The notes beneath the pieces were generated by a model. The model saw only the letters and a program-made list of their open reading frames with translations, was not told where the DNA came from and ran no database searches. Shown here piece after piece: positions 19,694-27,502 of a stretch of DNA of 57,761 nucleotides. A program made the position numbers and the translations under genes. Location: the NCBI RefSeq assembly GCF_008107635.1, contig NZ_SDGZ01000016.1, forward strand, positions 1 to 57,761, read 5' to 3'. How positions within the stretch are numbered: position 1 is the stretch's first letter; each line of letters begins with the position of its first letter. Source of the DNA: Weissella muntiaci (GTDB taxonomy: Bacteria; Bacillota; Bacilli; Lactobacillales; Lactobacillaceae).

Positions 19694-19819
19694 TTGTTTT
19701 TATACCACCTAATGCGACTATAAAATAACTAGTTAAACTTAATATATTTGCACCGATTTGCACCAGAAAAAAAGTTTTGCACCAAATTTGCACCAGTTTG
19801 CACCGCTATATATCAACGT
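19670..19819. repeat. 13-bp perfect inverted repeat flanking the arm-type sites
   Basis: ACGTTGATATATA at 19670-19682 (inside the rpmE2 terminator) and TATATATCAACGT at 19807-19819 (covering the integrase stop codon) are exact complements. They bracket the TTTGCACC repeats. A role as core-type integrase sites or as part of the att core is possible. Confidence 0.6.
19747..19804. repeat. Five direct repeats of TTTGCACC: integrase arm-type sites at attL
   Basis: TTTGCACC occurs at 19747, 19757, 19776, 19787 and 19797, with spacings of 10, 19, 11 and 10 bases, close to whole helical turns. They lie immediately next to the integrase gene and the host border. This is the arrangement of arm-type binding sites for a tyrosine integrase with an N-terminal arm-binding domain. 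Confidence 0.8.
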
Positions 19820-20886
19820 TTATCAAACAAATTGATTGCCTTATTTGCCTCAGATTCACGTGTTTGTTGTAATAAATGGAAATAAGTGTTCTGAGTAATT
19901 GTGATATTTGAATGACCTAATCTTTCACTTACATAAGCAACGTCTATGTTGTGGTTAATTAGATAGCTTGCATGAGTGTGCCTTAGTCCGTGTAGAGTGA
20001 TTTGTTTTGCGTCGATCTTTGTCAATAACTTTTTTAATCTACGCAGAATATTAGACTGGTCTGTTGTTTCGCCAAAGAAATGTTCATCAAGGTTGGGGTA
20101 GTTAGCTTCGATTCTTTGCAATTGCGTAAACCATCGCTCAGGCATTGAGATGGTCCGGATAGAAGAACGAGTCTTTGGTTGTGTATATTGATGGGGTGCA
20201 ATATTTGTTTTTGTCTTATTAATACGCAAGGTCTTATCAGCTTTATTGATGTCTTTAAATGTCAGTGCAAGGATTTCGCCAGCTCGTGCGCCAGATAAGG
20301 CAAGGGTATAGATGACAAAGTGATAGAGATCGGGTATATCTTCGGTTTCAATGAAGTTTAAAAGGTTGTTTAAATCTTCTTCTTCTAAGAATTTCAGACT
20401 AGCATTCTTGCTTGAAGCGCCATTTATCTTAATCTTGTATGTTGGATCGGTACGGATTAGTCCGGTATTAAACGCTTCTTTTAGCGGCATACCGATTCTA
20501 AGTGCAACTTGCTTGGTTGTACTTGCCTTGTGGTTAAATCCGTATTCATCAATGACTTGCTGAAGTCTGTTACGATCCATTTGTTCTAATGTAATGCCCT
20601 CTAGGTGCTCATGTACATATTGCTGGGTCCATTTATGATTAACAATAGTTTGAGGCTTTAGACCATAGCTTAGGTGCGTTGCAAGCCACTTGTCATAATA
20701 GTCAACAAACAACATTTCTGAAGCGTCAGGAGTGTATCCATCTGCTAGTTTAGTAACCATTTGAGCTTCATATTGTTGTGCACTCTTTTTGGTAAGGAAG
20801 CCACGCTTAACTTTCCTTTTGTATTTTGAACCAACCTTATAACTGATTATTGCTGTGTAGGTTTTACCTTCTTGTTTAATTGACAT
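19813..20886 (-). CDS. Phage tyrosine integrase
   Basis: A 357-residue site-specific recombinase. The N-terminal 50 residues, basic and with the pattern ISYKVGSKYKRKVKRGFLTKK, form an arm-binding domain; a SAM-like core-binding domain follows at about 55-150. Catalytic residues are Arg201 (SGARAGEILAL), His299 and Arg302 (LHGLRHTHASYL), His325 (RLGHSN) and the nucleophile Tyr335 (TQNTYFHL). All are present, so it should be active. It reads toward the attL sites. Confidence 0.96.
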   Translation of the reverse strand: MSIKQEGKTYTAIISYKVGSKYKRKVKRGFLTKKSAQQYEAQMVTKLADGYTPDASEMLFVDYYDKWLATHLSYGLKPQTIVNHKWTQQYVHEHLEGITLEQMDRNRLQQVIDEYGFNHKASTTKQVALRIGMPLKEAFNTGLIRTDPTYKIKINGASSKNASLKFLEEEDLNNLLNFIETEDIPDLYHFVIYTLALSGARAGEILALTFKDINKADKTLRINKTKTNIAPHQYTQPKTRSSIRTISMPERWFTQLQRIEANYPNLDEHFFGETTDQSNILRRLKKLLTKIDAKQITLHGLRHTHASYLINHNIDVAYVSERLGHSNITITQNTYFHLLQQTRESEANKAINLFDKR

Positions 20887-20997
20887 ATAAATTAAAACTT
20901 AACCTTTCTATTATAAAATTGAGTAGTTTAAAGACATGCTCAGGTCTGCTATACTAATAAACAGAAATGAGCAGTAATGTTTGTTTTTAAAGAGGGG

Positions 20998-21041
20998 ATC
21001 CACATCACTTAGCTTGCCGGCGGGGGATGTGGATTTTTTAT
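20998..21041. repeat. Hairpin at the end of the cassette array
   Basis: ATCCACATC and GATGTGGAT form a nine-base stem enclosing a second stem around GCCGGC; a T-run follows on the plus strand. Read on the minus strand its first arm (AATCCACATCCCC, then CGCC) matches the start of the hairpin elements between the cassettes, so it looks like the terminal member of that family. It lies in the 270-base gap between the SemiSWEET-like gene and the integrase, where I see no other gene. Confidence 0.6.
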
Positions 21042-21156
21042 TTCTCGATGCTCATATTAAAGCCTTTCATAATATTGATTCTCATCGAATTATGTATGAC
21101 TATTTGAGTTGTCAAGAAGTATGAAAGTAAGCTATCAAATGTTGTTGTTGCAAAGG

Positions 21157-21429
21157 TTATATGATAGCTGTTAATGCTGCGGCAAATCCAAAGATGATAC
21201 CAGGAACGTTAGCAATGATAATAGCTCGATCTCTTGTTTTACCATCAAGTCCAAAGAGACCGTGAATAGTCCAAAAAATACAGTTTATCATAGCGACTAG
21301 AGGTTGAATTGGGTTGCTTGGTTCACCATTAAGGTTAGAAATAATTTGTGGGATGTATGAGACATACATAAGTACTGACATAATAGAAGCGATACTAGCG
21401 ATAATTCTTAATGATTTTTTTGTATCCAT
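21157..21429 (-). CDS. SemiSWEET-like sugar transporter (PQ-loop family)
   Basis: A 90-residue membrane protein with three hydrophobic helices (about 8-30, 44-60 and 68-88), the size of a bacterial SemiSWEET half-transporter, which dimerises to move sugars such as sucrose or glucose. The PQ motif is Pro27-Gln28 in MYVSYIPQIISNL; NCIFWTIHG in helix 2 and IIANVPGIIFG in helix 3 (Asn74, Pro76) match conserved substrate-pocket positions. The ribosome binding site AAGGAG is present and the 30-bp array repeat lies just upstream. A sugar carrier in a prophage lysogeny region is unusual. Substrate cannot be read. Confidence 0.82.
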   Translation of the reverse strand: MDTKKSLRIIASIASIMSVLMYVSYIPQIISNLNGEPSNPIQPLVAMINCIFWTIHGLFGLDGKTRDRAIIIANVPGIIFGFAAALTAII

Positions 21430-21446
21430 TTTTCTCCTTAGATTTG

Positions 21447-21476
21447 AAGCTTTTAACGTGGATCATGTTTGCACGT
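21447..21476 (-). repeat. Array repeat, copy A (before the SemiSWEET-like gene)
   Basis: One of seven 30-bp copies. Read on the gene strand it is ACGTG-N11-CACGT followed by TAAAAGCTT, ending about 18 bases before the start codon of the next gene. The ACGTG/CACGT arms can pair. This copy lacks the upstream GC hairpin. Confidence 0.9.
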
Positions 21477-21486
21477 GATTACAGTG

Positions 21487-21783
21487 TTAAATTAACTTTT
21501 TAATTGATATATGGTTTTGCTTTTGCATAATTAGTTCGCGAGTTATTTCTTTTTTTAAAGCCTCAGAGTAATTGAATCTAACTGATCCAATCTCTATGTA
21601 CGAAGAGCGGCTGCTCATGTAAAAAAGTATGATTGAGATGATAAAAAGCAAGATCATTAAATAGGCCGACGATAGGGTGAGAAGGGGGTAAGTTGCCATA
21701 CTTTCATATATTAGAATCGATGACATGCCTGAAATATCAGCAATGACTATACAAATATAACCGTAGATGCTCCATTTGCTCAT
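21487..21783 (-). CDS. Small membrane protein, A-[DN]-I-x-G family
   Basis: A 98-residue protein with two membrane helices: the first carries IVIADISGMSSILIY, the second LMILLFIISIILFYM, followed by a charged cytoplasmic tail. The start MSKWSI-Y-GYI is nearly identical to that of the gene at 22388-22612, including the surrounding DNA, so they are duplicates. Ribosome binding site GAGGA. Function unknown; size, membrane location and position between integrase and repressor resemble superinfection-exclusion proteins such as Sie2009 of lactococcal phages. Confidence 0.75.
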   Translation of the reverse strand: MSKWSIYGYICIVIADISGMSSILIYESMATYPLLTLSSAYLMILLFIISIILFYMSSRSSYIEIGSVRFNYSEALKKEITRELIMQKQNHISIKKLI

Positions 21784-21812
21784 GATAAATTCCTCATATT
21801 TTGGGTGGGGGT

Positions 21813-21842
21813 AAGCTTTTAACGTGGATTATGTTTGCACGT
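21813..21842 (-). repeat. Array repeat, copy B
   Basis: A 30-bp copy with one change in the central part (GATT in place of GATC on the plus strand), 30 bases before the start of the 98-residue membrane protein gene. No GC hairpin upstream. Confidence 0.88.
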
Positions 21843-21857
21843 GAAGCGCATAGTTAA

Positions 21858-22127
21858 TTAAATGATCTCATCATCAGTCATGTGTTTCTGTTTCCTTTTT
21901 TGATGGAAATTAAATAACAGTTTCTCTTCAGATCGAATTTCTTTGTCCAATTGTAAAATTCTGAATAAAAAGCATATAAAACTGGCAATTAAAAAAATAG
22001 AACTAATAATAAACGTCTGAGCAATCGTTTTAGTCCAAAGAGTTTCTCCTGAAAGGATTATAGTAGCGGTACCAAAGATATCGGCAATTGTAGCATTAGC
22101 CCAACCGCAATAAGTTAAAAGTGTCAT
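21858..22127 (-). CDS. Small membrane protein, A-[DN]-I-x-G family
   Basis: An 89-residue protein with two membrane helices and a highly charged tail (KRKQKHMTDDEII). The first helix holds NATIADIFGTATIIL, sharing the ADI-x-G motif with its neighbours. Ribosome binding site AAAAAGGAG. It is the third gene of a three-gene unit behind a single array repeat. Function unknown. Confidence 0.72.
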   Translation of the reverse strand: MTLLTYCGWANATIADIFGTATIILSGETLWTKTIAQTFIISSIFLIASFICFLFRILQLDKEIRSEEKLLFNFHQKRKQKHMTDDEII

Positions 22128-22171
22128 AACTGATTCTCCTTTTTAATAGGGGGGATCGTAGTTTAAAGAAT

Positions 22172-22372
22172 TTACTTTATGTTGTGACCTTGCTTCTTTT
22201 CGGAATAACAATAATCGAGATATTCCTGTTCAAAGTACCCAATACGTAACTGTTTAAATCTTAGATGGGCAAAGAAGGTGCCTACACCGCATATGTCAGC
22301 CAAAATAAAGCAAGTCCAGCTTGAAGTTATAGTCCAAACAAATCTCCGATGATCGTCTATTCTTGTTAACAT
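22172..22372 (-). CDS. Small membrane protein, A-[DN]-I-x-G family
   Basis: A 66-residue protein with one or two membrane helices around TSSWTCFILADICGVGTFF and a charged, Tyr-rich C-terminus. It shares the ADI-x-G motif with the adjacent genes. AGGAGG precedes the ATG, and it follows the upstream gene by 15 bases, so the two are co-translated or closely coupled. Function unknown. Confidence 0.72.
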   Translation of the reverse strand: MLTRIDDHRRFVWTITSSWTCFILADICGVGTFFAHLRFKQLRIGYFEQEYLDYCYSEKKQGHNIK

Positions 22373-22387
22373 TTCTTCCTCCTAATA

Positions 22388-22612
22388 TTATAACTTAGAA
22401 TCCTGTCCTTCTGAGTCTGTGTAGTCAATGTAGTAATGTACATTGTTGAAAACAAATAGAAATCCAGCAAGTATCAGTAAGATAATCATTATGCCTATTA
22501 ATAATATTGGTGTATCTACACTTTTGCTGAAGTCAGGTGTAAAGAGTGAAAGTAACCCAGAAATATTGGCAAGGACTACGAGAATGTAGCCTGCTATACT
22601 CCATTTGCTCAT
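22388..22612 (-). CDS. Small membrane protein, A-[DN]-I-x-G family
   Basis: A 74-residue protein with two membrane helices; the first has LVVLANISGLLSLF, the second LLIGIMIILLILAGFLFVF, and an acidic tail follows. The first 20 residues and the DNA before them match the gene at 21487-21783, showing duplication inside the array. It is the first of three genes behind one array repeat. Function unknown. Confidence 0.75.
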   Translation of the reverse strand: MSKWSIAGYILVVLANISGLLSLFTPDFSKSVDTPILLIGIMIILLILAGFLFVFNNVHYYIDYTDSEGQDSKL

Positions 22613-22641
22613 GATTAAATGCCTCGAAAAAATTAGAATAA

Positions 22642-22671
22642 AAGCTTTTAACGTGAATCATGTTTGCACGT
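22642..22671 (-). repeat. Array repeat, copy C, with upstream GC hairpin
   Basis: A 30-bp copy (GAATC variant) preceding the three-gene unit. On the gene strand a hairpin (22678-22702; ATTCC pairing with GGAAT around an inner CGCC/GGCG stem) comes immediately before it. Confidence 0.9.
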
Positions 22672-22728
22672 ATATGTATTCCACGCCATAGGGCGAGGGA
22701 ATGTGTTTTTTATAAATAGAAAGAAATA

Positions 22729-23991
22729 TTACACAATGAGTTGCCCATTACTTTGAACCTCTGAGCGGCTGAGGAGTTCCCAAACCAAATAAAGCATTAT
22801 AATAATGAACCAATATGGATTAAATAAGGCTTTAGGTACAAAATGGAAAGATTCCCAGAGTAAGAAATTTAGGGAAACAAAAAGAATAAAATATTTTTTT
22901 ATAGGCATAATCGAAAATGCTAAAAATGAGAAAACAGCTGCCAACGAAAAATAGTTTTCATGCTGTCCTGGTAAAAAGAACCAAAATATTATTGGAGATA
23001 TTATAGTTAGATCTATGGCCGATAAAGTGAGGTTCTTTATTGAGTTGGTTTGGAATAAGAGAAAAATCGTAAGAAAGATAAGTATTATCATCAATAAGAA
23101 ACTGATTGTCTGAAAATTGCTGACATTATCTGGTACAATCGCAGGAAAATTAACAAAGGGTTGTTTGCCATCAACAATACTTAGAAAGCCATTACCGGCA
23201 CCAATTGTACTAGATGTTCTTTGTAATAATGTTCCAAAGGAGCTTTCCCAAAGGCTAAGTCCTGCAAAATATCCTGGTAGAGACGCGAATACAAGACCGA
23301 TAAACGAGAATAATGGTGATAGTTTATCAATGATCGAACTCTTCTTGAATGTATAGAGGTAGTAGAAAATGTATAGAGGTGCGATATATAAAGCCATTGC
23401 TTTAAAGTATATCGCTACTCCAAATAGGAACCATGACAGGATATGTTTCTCCTTAAGAAACAATAATAAGGATAGTAGAATAAGTGAAATGTATGAACTA
23501 TCAGGCAAGTTAGTTTTTAGAATATCTCCCAGAAAAGGAGGAGTGAACATTATTAGACTTGCAGCAAGTGTTGCATTCCAGTTGGAATCATTTTTCTGAA
23601 AGTGTTTGACAATTAAGTATGCAAAAAGTGAAGAAGATAGTGTAAATATTGCACCAAGATATTTTATAGATGCAGCTACACTAAGAATGTGAGGGAAAAG
23701 ACCTACTTTAGAGAATAAAACTATTATGAAATACCATATTGAAGTATAGTCAGCATAGTGTCTGTGTCCATCTAATATTGAATATAATTGTGAATTAATG
23801 CTGGCAATTCCATGGAATCCATGCACGTTCAGATAGTTCCACCAAGAAACTTGATATAAGTTTATATCGTTCGTAAAATGCTTTGGATAAAGATCTAGTT
23901 GAGAAAAAAATAGAATTAACCAAATAGTCAAAAATATGAGATATAGCATTAATTTATTGCTTAGCCGATGTTTGATTGGAGATTGAAACAT
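22729..23991 (-). CDS. GT-C-like integral membrane glycosyltransferase
   Basis: A 420-residue protein with about 10-12 membrane helices. The first loop holds FTNDINLYQVSWWNYLNVHG and later HRHYADYTSIWYFI, the D...Y..W...L...G and D-Y pattern of Gpi18-related mannosyltransferases and other GT-C enzymes that use polyprenyl-phosphate sugars. Such enzymes in prophages usually alter surface glycans, which blocks adsorption of related phages. The start at 23991 has a weak ribosome binding site. It is AT-richer than the late genes. Family assignment is by pattern, so moderate. Confidence 0.68.
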   Translation of the reverse strand: MFQSPIKHRLSNKLMLYLIFLTIWLILFFSQLDLYPKHFTNDINLYQVSWWNYLNVHGFHGIASINSQLYSILDGHRHYADYTSIWYFIIVLFSKVGLFPHILSVAASIKYLGAIFTLSSSLFAYLIVKHFQKNDSNWNATLAASLIMFTPPFLGDILKTNLPDSSYISLILLSLLLFLKEKHILSWFLFGVAIYFKAMALYIAPLYIFYYLYTFKKSSIIDKLSPLFSFIGLVFASLPGYFAGLSLWESSFGTLLQRTSSTIGAGNGFLSIVDGKQPFVNFPAIVPDNVSNFQTISFLLMIILIFLTIFLLFQTNSIKNLTLSAIDLTIISPIIFWFFLPGQHENYFSLAAVFSFLAFSIMPIKKYFILFVSLNFLLWESFHFVPKALFNPYWFIIIMLYLVWELLSRSEVQSNGQLIV

Positions 23992-24011
23992 ACCCAGTAG
24001 TACCCACTCTT

Positions 24012-24041
24012 AAGCTTTTAACGTGAATCATGTTTGCACGT
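24012..24041 (-). repeat. Array repeat, copy D, with upstream GC hairpin
   Basis: A 30-bp copy (GAATC variant) 20 bases before the glycosyltransferase-like gene. The hairpin CCGCC-AAGC-GGCGG (24048-24061) precedes it on the gene strand and differs in sequence from the others while keeping the stem. Confidence 0.9.
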
Positions 24042-24066
24042 ATGTATCCGCCAAGCGGCGGGAATT

Positions 24067-24411
24067 TTAATAATTATAAGAATTAAAGATCATAGAAAAA
24101 ATTGCGCCCATGAAAAGGAAGTAAAGAATGATACCAACAATCATAACGATAAATTGAACCAATCCAGCACGACCCCAAGTGGCTTGTACTTTGTTGAAAG
24201 TCTCAACGTCTTGATAATCGCCTTTTTGCCAAGCCCATTCATTACCCTTAGCACCAACAATAAAAATCCAGACGATATTAAAAATTGGGATTAGTGTCAA
24301 AAGAGGTAGGTAGGTTTTATTTCCAATACCCCAAATCCAGTTGAACATAAAAGCTCCCCAATTCCACCCCTTAACTTCTGCAGGAACCACCTTACCATTT
24401 TCTTCAATCAT
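24067..24411 (-). CDS. Small membrane protein with a W-N-W-G-A-F motif
   Basis: A 114-residue protein: a short soluble start, then the motif VKGWNWGAFMFNWIWGIGNK, a hydrophobic helix, VGAKGNEWAWQKGDY, and a final long hydrophobic segment. This pattern is found in a widespread family of small bacterial membrane proteins of unknown function. The start is ATG 24411, six bases after AGGAG; an upstream in-frame ATG has no such site. The array repeat lies 40 bases upstream. Confidence 0.75.
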   Translation of the reverse strand: MIEENGKVVPAEVKGWNWGAFMFNWIWGIGNKTYLPLLTLIPIFNIVWIFIVGAKGNEWAWQKGDYQDVETFNKVQATWGRAGLVQFIVMIVGIILYFLFMGAIFSMIFNSYNY

Positions 24412-24450
24412 AATAACTCTCCTAATGATGAACCCACTCATCATATATCT

Positions 24451-24480
24451 AAGCTTTTAGCGTGGATCATGTTTGCACGT
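24451..24480 (-). repeat. Array repeat, copy E, with upstream GC hairpin
   Basis: A 30-bp copy with one change (TTTTAGCG in place of TTTTAACG). The hairpin at 24487-24512 keeps the outer ATCCC/GGGAT stem but has inner CACC/GGTG where copies C and F have CGCC/GGCG, a compensatory change. Confidence 0.9.
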
Positions 24481-24526
24481 ATATGTATCCCGCACCCCAA
24501 GGTGAGGGGGATGTGAATTTCTTTGG

Positions 24527-25465
24527 TTAATGCGAGACTTCCCAATGGTAACCGGGAGGCAACGTACCACCTGGAGCGATGATGTGACTATGCCCTTTAC
24601 GAGTAGCCCAAGTATATCCATCCTCTATTGCCCAATGGCTACCAGTAGCAACTCCACCGCCACCGTTACCAGTGGAATTGTTGGCTTGTGTTTGGGCAGT
24701 CTGACTGGCAGCGACTTGAGCCGCCTGAGCTGCTTGTTCTGAACTTTGCGATGCTGAAATTCTTGCACTTTCCGCTATGGAGCTCGAAACTGACATTGAG
24801 CTAGACAATGATTCTGACGCCATACGGCTGCTAGCTTCTGCCTCGGAAGAAGCTTTTTCAGAAGCTTCTTTTTCTGCAGAAATCGATGAGGCTCTTGATT
24901 CACTTTCTGCGCGCTTAGAGGTAGATTTATCATTTTTCGATGAAGATATGTACGAGGTTGGTTCTTCCTTGCTCTCAGGATGCTGTGCTGCATATCCAGT
25001 TGATCCCATGACTATAAGTACTATGGAAGTAATCAACATCCATTGAGGTTTTAGCTTGTTTTTATTTTTCAAGACTAACGAATTTATAAAAAGGTATATA
25101 GTTAATACAAGTGACAGGATACCCAAAGTAATGCTGGTTCTTGCAAACGTAAAACTAGCTATCAAGCCTATAATTCCAACGAATATCCAGAACCATCGGT
25201 TATTATTATTTTGATTGTTATTATTAGAGTAATAACCCGATTGCGGATTACTTGAACGACTAGAACTGGTAGGTGTGGAATTTGAAGAATCTTTAACATA
25301 AGATATTCCCGACCCTGGAATAGACGCTGTGGTTCTAGTGCCACCATTCGCTTTCTTTGTGTATCGGAATCCTTTTCCTCCGATACTCCATCCAACACCC
25401 GATTTGCTAAGATTTATTCGGGCGCCCCCGCCCAAATTGATACTTTTCCTATACCTAAGACCCAT
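24527..25465 (-). CDS. DUF4236-domain membrane protein with Ser-rich stalk
   Basis: A 312-residue modular protein. Residues 1-58 form a DUF4236 domain (GLRYRKSINLGGGARINLSK, then GSGISYVKD). A Ser/Asn-rich linker leads to three hydrophobic segments (about 90-160). Then comes a long Ser/Ala/Glu-rich stalk (about 175-270) with coiled-coil character, a glycine spacer, and a C-terminal module HWAIEDGYTWATRKGHSHII-APGGTLPPGYHW. Start ATG 25465 follows AGGAGTAATTTA, which is fused to the array repeat. The layout suggests surface display of the last module. Function unknown. Confidence 0.75.
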   Translation of the reverse strand: MGLRYRKSINLGGGARINLSKSGVGWSIGGKGFRYTKKANGGTRTTASIPGSGISYVKDSSNSTPTSSSRSSNPQSGYYSNNNNQNNNNRWFWIFVGIIGLIASFTFARTSITLGILSLVLTIYLFINSLVLKNKNKLKPQWMLITSIVLIVMGSTGYAAQHPESKEEPTSYISSSKNDKSTSKRAESESRASSISAEKEASEKASSEAEASSRMASESLSSSMSVSSSIAESARISASQSSEQAAQAAQVAASQTAQTQANNSTGNGGGGVATGSHWAIEDGYTWATRKGHSHIIAPGGTLPPGYHWEVSH

Positions 25466-25477
25466 TAAATTACTCCT

Positions 25478-25507
25478 AAGCTTTTAACGTGGATCATGTT
25501 TGCACGT
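25478..25507 (-). repeat. Array repeat, copy F, with upstream GC hairpin
   Basis: A 30-bp copy whose 3' end runs directly into the ribosome binding site (AAGCTTAGGAG on the gene strand). The hairpin at 25514-25538 has ATCCC/GGGAT outside and CGCC/GGCG inside and starts nine bases after the stop codon of the previous gene. Confidence 0.92.
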
Positions 25508-25546
25508 ATATGTATCCCACGCCATAGGGCGAGGGGATGTGGATTT

Positions 25547-26263
25547 TTAGTTTACTAATGTTGAGTAGTTCATTGGATTCAAGAGGACATCGTCTTTTAA
25601 AGAGCCATCTTTATTTACATTTTTAAAAATATTAAGGTTACCTTTGTAATCGGGTAAAACTACATTCATACCAAAATTAGCAATATCTTTTTGTTTTACT
25701 TTTTCTGCTGATAATTGATTGTTTGATATCTGAACAACTATGTTGCCGTCATCAACGGTAAAACCATGTACAACAGTTTCCTTTACGACGTAGTTAGTGG
25801 AATAGTAGTCTTTTCCTTCTTCGCTATATAATTTAGCTTGTTCCTCGGTATAACTATTTTTATACCAGTTATTTAATGAACGTAACTCTTGTTCGCGACG
25901 ATCATTAAGGCTTTTATAAACCTCGTTATTAGTCTTTAGTATAATGGTAGTTATTTTATTTTTTTTATTTAAAGTAAACGTTGATGAAATCACTTGTTTA
26001 TTATTAAGGTCAGTGTTATTTGAAATTTCTTTATCAGAATTATCAACGACACTAATTTGAGCTTTTCTCAATTTCCAAGTTTTTTTGATAGATTTTTTTG
26101 CGGTAGACACTGATTTATCTGTCAAGTTTAGTTTATCAATCTTTTTTTGATAACTTTTGGTGGCAGACTTTGAATTAGCACTAACAGATGTGGACAGGTT
26201 ATTAATTAATAATCCACTTACAATTATTCCCATTGCAAAAAAAATTAATGTATATTTTTTCAC
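25547..26263 (-). CDS. Secreted or membrane-anchored protein of unknown function
   Basis: A 238-residue protein with a signal peptide or anchor at residues 3-30 (YTLIFFAMGIIVSGLLIN followed by STSVSANS). The mature part is Lys/Asn-rich and helical, with repeats of short charged stretches and a C-terminal KGNLNIFKNVNKDGSLKDD. It has no Cys, so it is not a lipoprotein. The start is GTG at 26263 after GGAGTAATTATCA. It is the first cassette after the repressor operon. No family recognised. Confidence 0.68.
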   Translation of the reverse strand: MKKYTLIFFAMGIIVSGLLINNLSTSVSANSKSATKSYQKKIDKLNLTDKSVSTAKKSIKKTWKLRKAQISVVDNSDKEISNNTDLNNKQVISSTFTLNKKNKITTIILKTNNEVYKSLNDRREQELRSLNNWYKNSYTEEQAKLYSEEGKDYYSTNYVVKETVVHGFTVDDGNIVVQISNNQLSAEKVKQKDIANFGMNVVLPDYKGNLNIFKNVNKDGSLKDDVLLNPMNYSTLVN

Positions 26264-26277
26264 TGATAATTACTCCT

Positions 26278-26307
26278 AAGCTTTTAACGTGAATCATGTT
26301 TGCACGT
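26278..26307 (-). repeat. Array repeat, copy G
   Basis: A 30-bp copy (GAATC variant) again joined to AGGAGTAATT, the ribosome binding site of the next gene. There is no GC hairpin upstream; the 70 bases to the ImmA stop codon are AT-rich. Confidence 0.9.
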
Positions 26308-26378
26308 ATTCGTTAAGTAATTATTATGTTGTTTAACATATTTATAAAAGTGTTCAATAAATCACAAATATAGTTAAA

Positions 26379-26780
26379 TTAAATAGACTCGATAGCCTCT
26401 TTGACCATGTATTCAAAATGAGAGGGGAGACCAAATTCATCCATAAAGTTAATGTAGTTACGATACTCAAGAGGAACTTCTTGATAGATATACTTGGCTA
26501 TTAATTTTACGGCATTGAAATGTGCATCTCGTTCTTCGCGGTTTTTCATATAAGGGGAAAATGCGTAAAGAAACGTTGGCTTACTCCAAAGAATATGAGA
26601 AATCTCATGAGCAAGCCTAAAATCGACACTAAACTTTGAGTCATAATTAGGATTCATGTTAATGACTTTATTTAGAACAAAGGCAACATCAGGATCTGAT
26701 TTCTTTCCTTCTATATACTGCACACTAATGCCATTCCGTGTGGCAACGAAACCTAGATAATCAATTAAGTCAGTATGCAT
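26379..26780 (-). CDS. Phage ImmA-type metallopeptidase
   Basis: A 133-residue ImmA/IrrE-family protease with an intact zinc motif LAHEISHIL (about residues 84-92) and the downstream HFNAVKLIAKY helix. Partners of this type inactivate the phage repressor during induction. Its ATG overlaps the stop of the repressor gene in the sequence TAATG, so it is translationally coupled. Confidence 0.85.
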   Translation of the reverse strand: MHTDLIDYLGFVATRNGISVQYIEGKKSDPDVAFVLNKVINMNPNYDSKFSVDFRLAHEISHILWSKPTFLYAFSPYMKNREERDAHFNAVKLIAKYIYQEVPLEYRNYINFMDEFGLPSHFEYMVKEAIESI

Positions 26781-27127
26781 TATTCACCTCTCATTGTCTT
26801 GAGCATGGCGAGTAATGCTTTTTTATAATCCTCTGATAAAGGTTGACCATCAAACATAGCCATACCTTCCTCTGATAATGCTTTGTCTAAATCAACAATA
26901 TTTTCCTCGTTCTTAGCCGGACGGGGATTTTTTTCGTCTGTATTTCCAAGTAGGTAGTCAACTGAGACGTTCAAAACGTCTGCTACTGCCTTTAATGATA
27001 CGTGGCTAGGAGTTACGCTCTTCCAGTTATATATAGCGTTATTCGATAGTCCGGCTTTCTTAGCGGTAGTTTGAAGATTGTAACCCCGTTCTTTAGCTGT
27101 ATCTCTGGTTCTCTCAAATAATGTCAT
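26780..27127 (-). CDS. CI-like phage repressor (XRE family)
   Basis: A 115-residue repressor with an N-terminal helix-turn-helix (LQTTAKKAGLSNNAIYNWKS, then LKAVADVLNVSVDYLLGNTD) and a short acidic C-terminal part ending LKTMRGE. It lacks the autocleavage peptidase domain of lambda CI, so inactivation should depend on the adjacent ImmA protease, as in ICEBs1 and related phages. It reads away from the operator cluster at 27.16-27.34 kb. Confidence 0.88.
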   Translation of the reverse strand: MTLFERTRDTAKERGYNLQTTAKKAGLSNNAIYNWKSVTPSHVSLKAVADVLNVSVDYLLGNTDEKNPRPAKNEENIVDLDKALSEEGMAMFDGQPLSEDYKKALLAMLKTMRGE

Positions 27128-27157
27128 TTTAAATTCCTTAGAATAATTAATAGTAAA

Positions 27158-27176
27158 TTTTACAATCGTTGTTATT
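27158..27176. promoter_or_regulatory. Repressor operator O1
   Basis: TTTTACAATCGTTGTTATT, an imperfect version of the TTTTACAAT-N-ATTGTAAAA palindrome, 31 bases upstream of the repressor start. It would allow autoregulation of the repressor operon. Confidence 0.7.
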
Positions 27177-27181
27177 TTTTG

Positions 27182-27210
27182 TTGACTATTTTTACAATGA
27201 TTGTTATAGT
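27182..27210 (+). promoter_or_regulatory. Early lytic promoter PR with operator O2 inside
   Basis: TTGACT and TATAGT are separated by exactly 17 bases, reading toward the early genes. The operator copy TTTTACAATGATTGTTATA (27190-27208) fills the spacer and overlaps the -10 box, so a bound repressor would block RNA polymerase. Confidence 0.82.
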
Positions 27211-27317
27211 TGATTCATCAGGTAATAGTTGCAACAAAAAAACAGGCAATATCTAATGTAACTTTGGCGAGAGACGTTAATATGGCGGGTTTGTTTGTGC
27301 TATTTAGCATGTTTTTA

Positions 27318-27336
27318 TTTTACAATCATTGTAAAA
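27318..27336. promoter_or_regulatory. Repressor operator O3 (perfect palindrome)
   Basis: TTTTACAATCATTGTAAAA is a perfect 19-bp palindrome around a central C, the best of the three copies. It lies 110 bases downstream of PR. A 24-codon hydrophobic reading frame (27282-27356, starting MAGLFVLFSMFLFY) overlaps it but has only a weak ribosome binding site. Confidence 0.75.
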
Positions 27337-27377
27337 ATAATGCAAGAATTACCTGAAAAATTACATTAAGAAAGGAG

Positions 27378-27463
27378 AAAATAAAAAGCCAATTGGTATC
27401 CACTCCAACTGACTTTTAAATGCAGAGATGCAAAATACTTCGCATTTCTAATTCAACTTATAA
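27378..27463 (-). ncRNA. Candidate small RNA 2, antisense to the early leader
   Basis: On the minus strand TTGCAT (27496-27491) and TATAAT (27474-27469) with a 16-base spacer form a good promoter. About 85 bases on, AGTCAGTTGG pairs with CCAATTGGCT (two G-U pairs that would be mismatches on the other strand) and is followed by TTTTTATTTT, a minus-strand terminator. Between them are two more small stems (AACTT/AAGTT; ATGC/GCAT). No open reading frame is present. Ends are approximate. Confidence 0.5.
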
Positions 27464-27502
27464 AGTTAATTATAACTAGTTGTATTTTTAATGCAATTTC
27501 TA

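Follow-up and report, generated by a model that had tools for sequence, protein, structure and literature searches.

A conserved repeat, probably a hairpin RNA leader, at accessory-gene junctions in temperate phages of Lactobacillales

Seven copies of one 30-bp repeat lie between the integrase and repressor-like genes of a phage region in Weissella muntiaci (NCBI RefSeq assembly GCF_008107635.1, contig NZ_SDGZ01000016.1), each just upstream of a different gene or gene unit. What does such a repeat do in front of genes that mostly share no family? We analyzed the whole 57,761-nt stretch that holds the array (the window) and compared its repeat with bacterial genomes, phage records and viral contigs. 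The results indicated that the repeat is probably a hairpin RNA leader, and we favor, with moderate confidence, the reading that it serves the lysogeny operon as a cis-acting post-transcriptional RNA leader and, at the same time, as a recombination joint. A constrained structure, consistent strand and spacing, an intercistronic position, a wide distribution and a change of gene content at the element are all observed in the sequences.

Position and strand of the repeat

All seven copies in the window match the family pattern ACGTGCAAACATRATYCACGYTAAAAGCTT without a mismatch and lie on the minus strand; 100 shuffles, searched with up to three mismatches allowed, gave no match. An earlier note on this DNA had placed seven same-direction repeats at 21447, 21813, 22642, 24012, 24451, 25478 and 26278, each leading one gene or, once, a three-gene unit, and both statements were confirmed. 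The copies and the two hairpins beside them are as follows.

26278..26307, minus strand: element copy 1, behind the ImmA-like gene; leads a 238-aa secreted or anchored protein
25514..25538, minus strand: variable hairpin, then ATACATAT, directly before element copy 2
25478..25507, minus strand: element copy 2; leads a DUF4236 protein
24451..24480, minus strand: element copy 3; leads a 114-aa membrane protein
24425..24444, minus strand: second hairpin, ATGATGA-GTGGGT-TCATCAT, between element copy 3 and the Shine-Dalgarno (SD) sequence
24012..24041, minus strand: element copy 4; leads a 420-aa GT-C-like protein
22642..22671, minus strand: element copy 5; leads the three-gene unit
21813..21842, minus strand: element copy 6, with loop CAAACATAATC; leads a 98-aa membrane protein
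21447..21476, minus strand: element copy 7; leads a SemiSWEET-like gene

Six of the seven copies are thus single-gene leaders, and the copy at 22642 heads three genes. The distances from repeat to start codon are 12, 14, 17, 20, 29, 29 and 39 nt. The array is flanked by the ImmA-like gene, which lies beside the repressor-like gene, and by the phage integrase. An integron-like cassette array would have a dedicated recombinase for its repeat; the only integrase found on this contig is the one that belongs to the phage. Copies 2 and 5 have 70 nt in common at 93%, and hairpins resembling the one at 25514..25538 precede copies 3, 4 and 5 (by eye).

The element reads ACGTS–loop–SACGT, then TTAAAAGCT, then the SD sequence; its consensus, TACGTSCAA..TGAWYSACGTTAAAAGCT, lies upstream of the SD sequence. 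Over all loci read (cited by L number), 222 strict hits were reduced to 181 distinct elements, at least two of which (L187 and L199) look like chance matches by loop and context. To see how the element sits relative to genes, we scored the 175 distinct elements having enough sequence for an SD-led open reading frame (ORF) of at least 50 aa, 8-60 nt downstream. Such an ORF followed 143/175 elements, compared with 1/178 on the reverse strand and 110/1810 at random same-strand places. The median distance to the start codon is 20 nt. No clear gene stands immediately behind the Weissella copies L020, L022, L033 and two of L028.

On its other side, the element is frequently found just behind repressor/ImmA genes, typically 15-25 nt before the next gene. 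Among 72 deduplicated upstream proteins (gap up to 60 nt), 26 matched Peptidase_M78 and 5 matched Peptidase_S24. In annotated records of six phages and two plasmids, taken from the best hits, the next coding sequence (CDS) began 14-21 nt after the match in 8/8; the preceding CDS was labelled CI, metallo-protease, endopeptidase or ImmA/IrrE in 4/8, and was unnamed or hypothetical in bIL310, Javan207, Javan226 and a W. hellenica plasmid.

The stop codon of an upstream ORF lay within 12 nt of the element in 81 of the 158 elements for which such an ORF was found, which leaves little room for a promoter between the genes. Across 162 distinct flanks, positions -60 to -13 showed no conservation (0.08 bits at most), and sigma-70-type promoter pairs were not enriched in the 60 nt upstream (16/162 vs 31 in one shuffle). 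At the window locus, promoter-like matches numbered 28, with 28.3 expected from shuffles. Terminator-like hairpins occur upstream of many array copies, and where the gap is 20-75 nt a preceding hairpin is commoner (45-nt minimum free energy below -8 in 57% of 46 vs 4% of 81); in Weissella-type phages the hairpin upstream of the element is followed by ATACAT(AT). A run of at least five T within 12 nt of AAAAGC was found in 18/162 distinct copies, A2-type included, and five terminator-like sites were predicted in window 20900-27500, none of them on an element copy.

Stem covariation and exchange of genes at the element

If the repeat acts as RNA, the two sides of its stem should change together. 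The inner stem pair is C-G in 95 of the 181 elements, G-C in 82 and mismatched in 4, so that 177/181 are complementary; most copies came from patterns that demanded S on each side and did not demand complementarity. In alignment A1, the inner pair is complementary in 92/93. Diverged copies carry compensated changes at other stem positions, namely ATGTG/CACAT (L225), ATGTC/GACAT (L233), ACGAC/GTCGT (L234), TTGTC/GACAA (L217), TGTG/CACA (L254), AGTC/GACT (L249) and, by eye, TGAC/GTCA (L275). In alignment A3, both sides change in 3/5 stem pairs, with 22 such cells vs 7.8 in shuffles (0/500 as high); this result leans toward structure, because the alignment was fitted to the model. The covarying stem that marks structured cis-regulatory RNA is therefore present, with A3 model-fitted and four of the pairs pattern-fixed in A1. 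Both stem forms, C-G and G-C, occur within one contig at three loci (L070, L095 and L189).

The loop ranges from 6 to 14 nt. Two of its positions are coupled (A/T 149, G/G 20, A/A 1 and G/A 1, n=171), not as Watson-Crick pairs in all forms, and the G/G form may reflect few events. The asymmetric tail AAAAGC is kept in 37/38 model matches, the model itself favoring that tail. The earlier note does not mention that the repeat is probably an RNA hairpin.

We also compared the element with known RNA types. Rfam 15 covariance models matched none of the elements, either in window 20900-27500 (E up to 5) or at 9 other loci (E up to 1). PreQ1-I-type leaders likewise combine a short hairpin, an A-rich tail and an SD sequence immediately downstream; the element differs in lacking an Rfam match in the stretches searched, and a preQ1-like pseudoknot was rejected since, by eye, loop and tail hold no complementary bases for Watson-Crick pairing. 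A mini-ORF read from the window loop (ATG ATY CAC GTT AAA AGC) was discarded as well, because the ATG is replaced by CTG, GTG or ATA and the loop length shifts the frame. Type III toxin-antitoxin repeats were set aside on the ground that single copies precede unrelated genes.

Further hairpins were seen near the element. One with a G-rich loop lies between element and SD sequence in 34/293 cases vs 19.8 in shuffles, convincing for some Weissella cases only and therefore kept out of the favored reading; loops of GGGT/GTGGGT type on differing stems stand there at window 24425-24444 and in L018, L021, L027, L028 and L030. The TP-J34 record annotates a stem_loop at 1654-1682 (L255:755-783), which we read as CGTAG/CTACG; it uses the first bases of the element and, in our own reading of the record, is an alternative to the conserved hairpin.

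To follow gene content across the element, we compared 174 elements with 150 nt on each side, calling flanks alike at 80% identity or more. Among 180 pairs with alike upstream flanks, 98.9% were alike at -300 to -150 and 21.1% just downstream, so that 142/180 differ there. The converse comparison, 114 pairs with alike downstream flanks, gave 98.1% alike further down (of 107 readable) and 37.7% upstream. These pairs do not count as independent. The largest cluster by upstream flank, with 15 members, splits into 4 groups of downstream genes; another cluster, of 4, holds a single group. The elements were identical in about half of the discordant pairs, compared with 1.5% of unrelated pairs.

Individual cases showed the same boundary. 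Phages TP-J34 and Sfi21 are 98.5% alike to slightly past the gene start and 97.6% alike again from the gene's last bases, with ltp and orf203 exchanged behind the same element. L024 and L025, prophages of the window genome, are 93% alike through the element and first codons, then have different gene bodies, and match again over about the last 100 nt. For a W. oryzae SemiSWEET cassette, the match to the window begins at position 21476, the element's first base, and extends through the gene. Replacement of an extra gene among relatives at the same place, as expected of a moron, was thus found in the 142/180 pairs and in TP-J34/Sfi21. The cassette exchange at the repeat that the earlier note proposed is strongly supported as a pattern: the element marks the joint where accessory genes are swapped. 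That recombination acts on the repeat itself is what we infer from this pattern.

Competing readings of the element

In the reading we favor, the leader would consist of a 5-bp hairpin with a patterned 6-14-nt loop and a UUAAAAGCU tail, followed by the ribosome binding site, and would sit between the last lysogeny-operon (repressor/ImmA) gene, or the previous accessory gene, and the next accessory ('moron') gene. The mRNA would come mainly from the repressor promoter, as the repressor-operon transcript. For each accessory gene, hairpin and tail would govern translation start or processing, and any gene arriving behind the leader would therefore be expressed in the lysogen. Since every cassette has the same 30-36 bp, recombination in or beside the element could swap or add whole genes, and the seven-copy array would have been built by repeated additions and duplication. 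This array of mostly membrane and surface genes probably includes phage-exclusion functions. A broader proposal, which we put forward only tentatively, is a class of small regulatory leader RNAs specific to temperate phages of Lactobacillales. Such RNAs would sense some host factor or state, place exchangeable surface and exclusion genes under common control, and serve as a cassette joint free of a recombinase.

Several observations weigh against this reading. The hairpin is weak (-2.6 to -4.2 kcal/mol), with stability no better than that of shuffles in nine sequences; the outermost stem pair is unpaired in 9/44 cells of the model-fitted A3; and neither the tail nor four of the five stem pairs vary in the main set, because the collecting patterns fixed them. 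The element is not strictly linked to accessory genes, because capsid-scaffold-like genes follow it in L096 (Pfam DUF4355, if the single hit to that family is this gene's protein) and L233 (by eye), and an integrase-like ORF follows it in L235 (by eye), with a second, weak integrase match in L244. Among 16 SemiSWEET viral loci, several of them near-identical to one another, the element was present in 4, clearly absent in 7, cut by a contig end in 3 and without a clear gene start in 2. It is therefore common, not obligatory, and the objection that the earlier note itself foresaw, that such genes are also common without the repeat, is borne out in part, for the seven clear absences. Transcription is a further difficulty. 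Upstream of the element in L258, L261 and L262 stands, by eye, a hairpin of terminator-like form with a T-run, so the gene would need a promoter of its own, and passages of PMC3952083 announce a promoter of ltp 'elsewhere'.

Some of these loci deserve a closer description. The capsid-scaffold setting comprises L096:11795-11824 and L233:1501-1535, with proteins starting LNLQFFA and the L233 copy behind a 90-aa ORF. The same SemiSWEET gene occurs without the element in L257, L259 and L260 and with it in L258, L261 and L262; where the element is absent, a terminator-like hairpin precedes the gene, which would apparently require a promoter of its own.

Four other explanations account for part of the evidence. 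In one, the element would act on the repressor operon as an intrinsic terminator or attenuator and let limited transcription reach the accessory gene. It directly follows the repressor operon, the phage A2 record AJ251789 labels the stretch 'cI terminator', a seven-T run stands shortly past the tail in A2 with similar runs in the minority of copies counted above, and terminator-like hairpins precede many copies within arrays. However, where an intrinsic terminator has a stable G+C-rich stem followed by a T-run, the element has a weak 5-pair stem with a long loop, 144/162 copies have no T-run, the five terminator-like sites in 20900-27500 all avoid the copies, and the element precedes ltp, which passages of PMC3952083 describe as transcribed in the prophage. 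We consider a terminator unlikely. A DNA operator, with ACGTS...SACGT as the binding site through which a dimeric regulator (phage CI/Cro or a host factor) controls each gene and the paired changes as changes of half-sites, appears similarly unlikely. The stem is indeed a perfect inverted repeat whose inner pair changes on both sides, and in two window copies a promoter-like match takes CATGAT/CATAAT as its second hexamer, yet such matches only equal those in shuffles. Half-site spacing is not fixed, both stem forms coexist within single contigs, and the asymmetric tail is kept. The window's repressor-cro region (27158-27339) has its own ACAATNATTGT-type (ACAAT-type) repeats, possible operators unrelated to the 30-bp element (one phage, by inspection). 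An RNA hairpin fits better than a dimer operator, because the stem sides change together while the loop varies between 6 and 14 nt.

We regard the remaining two explanations as quite improbable. A recombination joint, as a conserved boundary sequence without regulatory role that is selected for bringing in new accessory genes, is consistent with the sharp change of gene content at the element and with the excess of identical elements in discordant pairs. Paired stem changes and loop coupling, however, keep structure and lose identity, the opposite of what homology-driven exchange needs, which argues against a joint alone; the strict strand and start-codon spacing do so too. Alternatively, the element could belong to a promoter that a host sigma factor or an activator recognizes, so that each accessory gene has its own transcript as in a classic moron. 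Passages of PMC3952083 call Ltp a moron and announce a promoter and a terminator for it, and the terminator-like hairpins upstream of some copies point the same way. Against this, the region from -60 to -13 is unconserved and promoter pairs are not enriched, complementary covariation is not expected of promoter halves, and a start codon at a median of 20 nt leaves almost no 5' untranslated region.

Distribution, genes behind the element and related systems

Allowing two mismatches, we found 18 copies in the host genome, of which 11 are outside the array. In a search that covered tyrosine integrases, 11 of the 18 copies had a match within 6.5 kb, and the other seven were more than 40 kb from one. 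The distant copies, at G000:C30:33908 and 119316-127581, C5:103864 and C17:93958-95281, may be remnants of prophages or stand-alone loci. When no more than one mismatch was allowed, 7/60 genomes had a match, the window's own and six others, all of its genus. Counting the window's own genome, the covariance model (E up to 0.01 per genome) matched 45/395 sampled genomes of the order, in 15/80 genera; about four of these matches could be chance. In a class sample of 398 genomes, two outside Lactobacillales had marginal matches (E 0.002-0.007), taken as chance. A BLAST search of 40 nt against phage records at E up to 10 returned 82 records, chiefly of Streptococcus and Lactobacillus; lists at this threshold contain chance hits and indicate spread, not counts. 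In IMG/VR, the element was found in at least 120 stretches in each of two overlapping pattern scans. The element is thus found in Weissella, Lactobacillus sensu lato, Lactococcus and Streptococcus, carried by their temperate phages and prophages. The objection that the repeat might be unique to this strain does not hold, as it occurs in other Weissella genomes and across the order, and the earlier expectation that the same repeat would lead other membrane genes at the same locus of related prophages was widely borne out.

To characterize the genes behind the element, a set of 96 proteins was scanned. Nine are those of the window, with two in second and third place behind one element, and 87 come from elsewhere. 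The 87 came from a non-redundant list of 90 (SD sequence, start within 60 nt, at least 50 aa) from which three repeats of window genes were dropped. Pfam assigned SHOCT to 9, Lipoprotein_Ltp to 5, DUF5067 to 4, bPH_3 to 3, MtN3_slv (SemiSWEET) to 3 and DUF805 to 2, with single cases that include EntA_Immun, SLATT_1, YbjQ_1 and a PemK-like protein. Up to 10 of the 96 matched PHROGs families named superinfection exclusion. PADLOC matched seven models with one member each, indicating that no known defence system explains the set. The superinfection-exclusion lipoprotein gene ltp of TP-J34 is itself behind the element. The exclusion role proposed in the earlier note is therefore supported for the cassette class, by Ltp and the exclusion PHROGs; this support does not extend to the nine window genes.

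We class the element as a phage start-associated leader, probably a structured RNA, that marks module joints across an order. The nearest described case, on the passages available, is the Start-Associated Sequences and Extended SAS (SAS/ESAS) of Cluster K mycobacteriophages (PMC3203893, PMC12699233), which differ in sequence and RNA pairing. These are short repeats, mostly in one orientation, near the start codons of varied gene families; about half have an upstream inverted repeat, and their function is not established according to these passages. The element resembles them in its single orientation close to start codons. The SAS is a 13-bp sequence, GGGATAGGAGCCC, that contains the SD core, whereas the element has another sequence and lies upstream of the SD sequence; for ESAS the authors, in the passages seen, found little support for an mRNA hairpin, whereas here the paired changes support stem pairing. 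The element further differs in host order, in its lysogeny-operon position and in having copies at mosaic junctions.

Moron and superinfection-exclusion genes of phages of lactic acid bacteria (LAB), Ltp of TP-J34 and orf203 of Sfi21, stand behind the element between repressor/ImmA-type genes and the integrase; the literature passages on TP-J34 Ltp that we covered do not describe a shared leader. Conserved boundary sequences at phage module joints, as discussed in PMC3029335, are likewise short conserved sequences at a mosaic boundary where homologous recombination is possible, whereas the one here is found in many phages of one bacterial order and is RNA-functional in appearance. Open-licence full-text literature yielded no description of the element, a weak negative since most subscription-journal papers lie outside it.

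Accessory genes between repressor and integrase can decide the resistance of LAB and streptococcal lysogens to other phages, and many are unnamed. The shared leader offers a sequence handle for finding them without homology and a testable hypothesis for how unrelated genes are expressed from one prophage. It is also a concrete conserved sequence at a mosaic phage junction, of a kind that earlier authors, in the passages seen of PMC3029335, could not find at most junctions.

The nine array genes and their neighbours in the window are listed below.

26780..27127, minus strand: repressor-like protein, by sequence and position (no family-library search)
26379..26780, minus strand: ImmA/IrrE-like metallopeptidase, immediately upstream of the array; weak Peptidase_M78 match below the Pfam cut-off
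25547..26263, minus strand: 238-aa protein with an N-terminal hydrophobic segment; best Pfam match E 0.16
24527..25465, minus strand: 312-aa DUF4236 protein with hydrophobic segments (Pfam, hydropathy)
24067..24411, minus strand: 114-aa membrane protein; relatives in L274 and L275 have diverged element copies (by eye)
22729..23991, minus strand: 420-aa polytopic protein; weak Alg6_Alg8 (GT-C) match slightly below the Pfam cut-off
22388..22612, minus strand: 74-aa small membrane protein, AxIxG group (motif comparison, hydropathy)
22172..22372, minus strand: 66-aa protein, AxIxG group (motif comparison, hydropathy)
21858..22127, minus strand: 89-aa small membrane protein, AxIxG group (motif comparison, hydropathy)
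21487..21783, minus strand: 98-aa small membrane protein, AxIxG group (motif comparison, hydropathy)
21157..21429, minus strand: SemiSWEET-like (MtN3_slv) 90-aa protein (Pfam)
19813..20886, minus strand: phage integrase

The nine genes had been described as unrelated in family and as all encoding membrane or surface proteins. The first description is too strong, because four small proteins, at 21490-21783, 21861-22127, 22175-22372 and 22391-22612, have the AxIxG motif in common and form a loose group, two of them being 38% identical. The second stands for most: 8/9 have at least one hydrophobic 19-mer (hydropathy, set cut), and the 66-aa protein has none. In the converse search, from the gene for the 114-aa membrane protein, the element was found by eye in 3/3, one contig matching the protein at 100% and two with diverged forms of the element.

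The Rfam search also returned Spy779816, an S. pyogenes small RNA, at L057:3672-3758 (69.9 bits, cut-off 67), between an accessory gene and the integrase of Streptococcus phage Bonnie.

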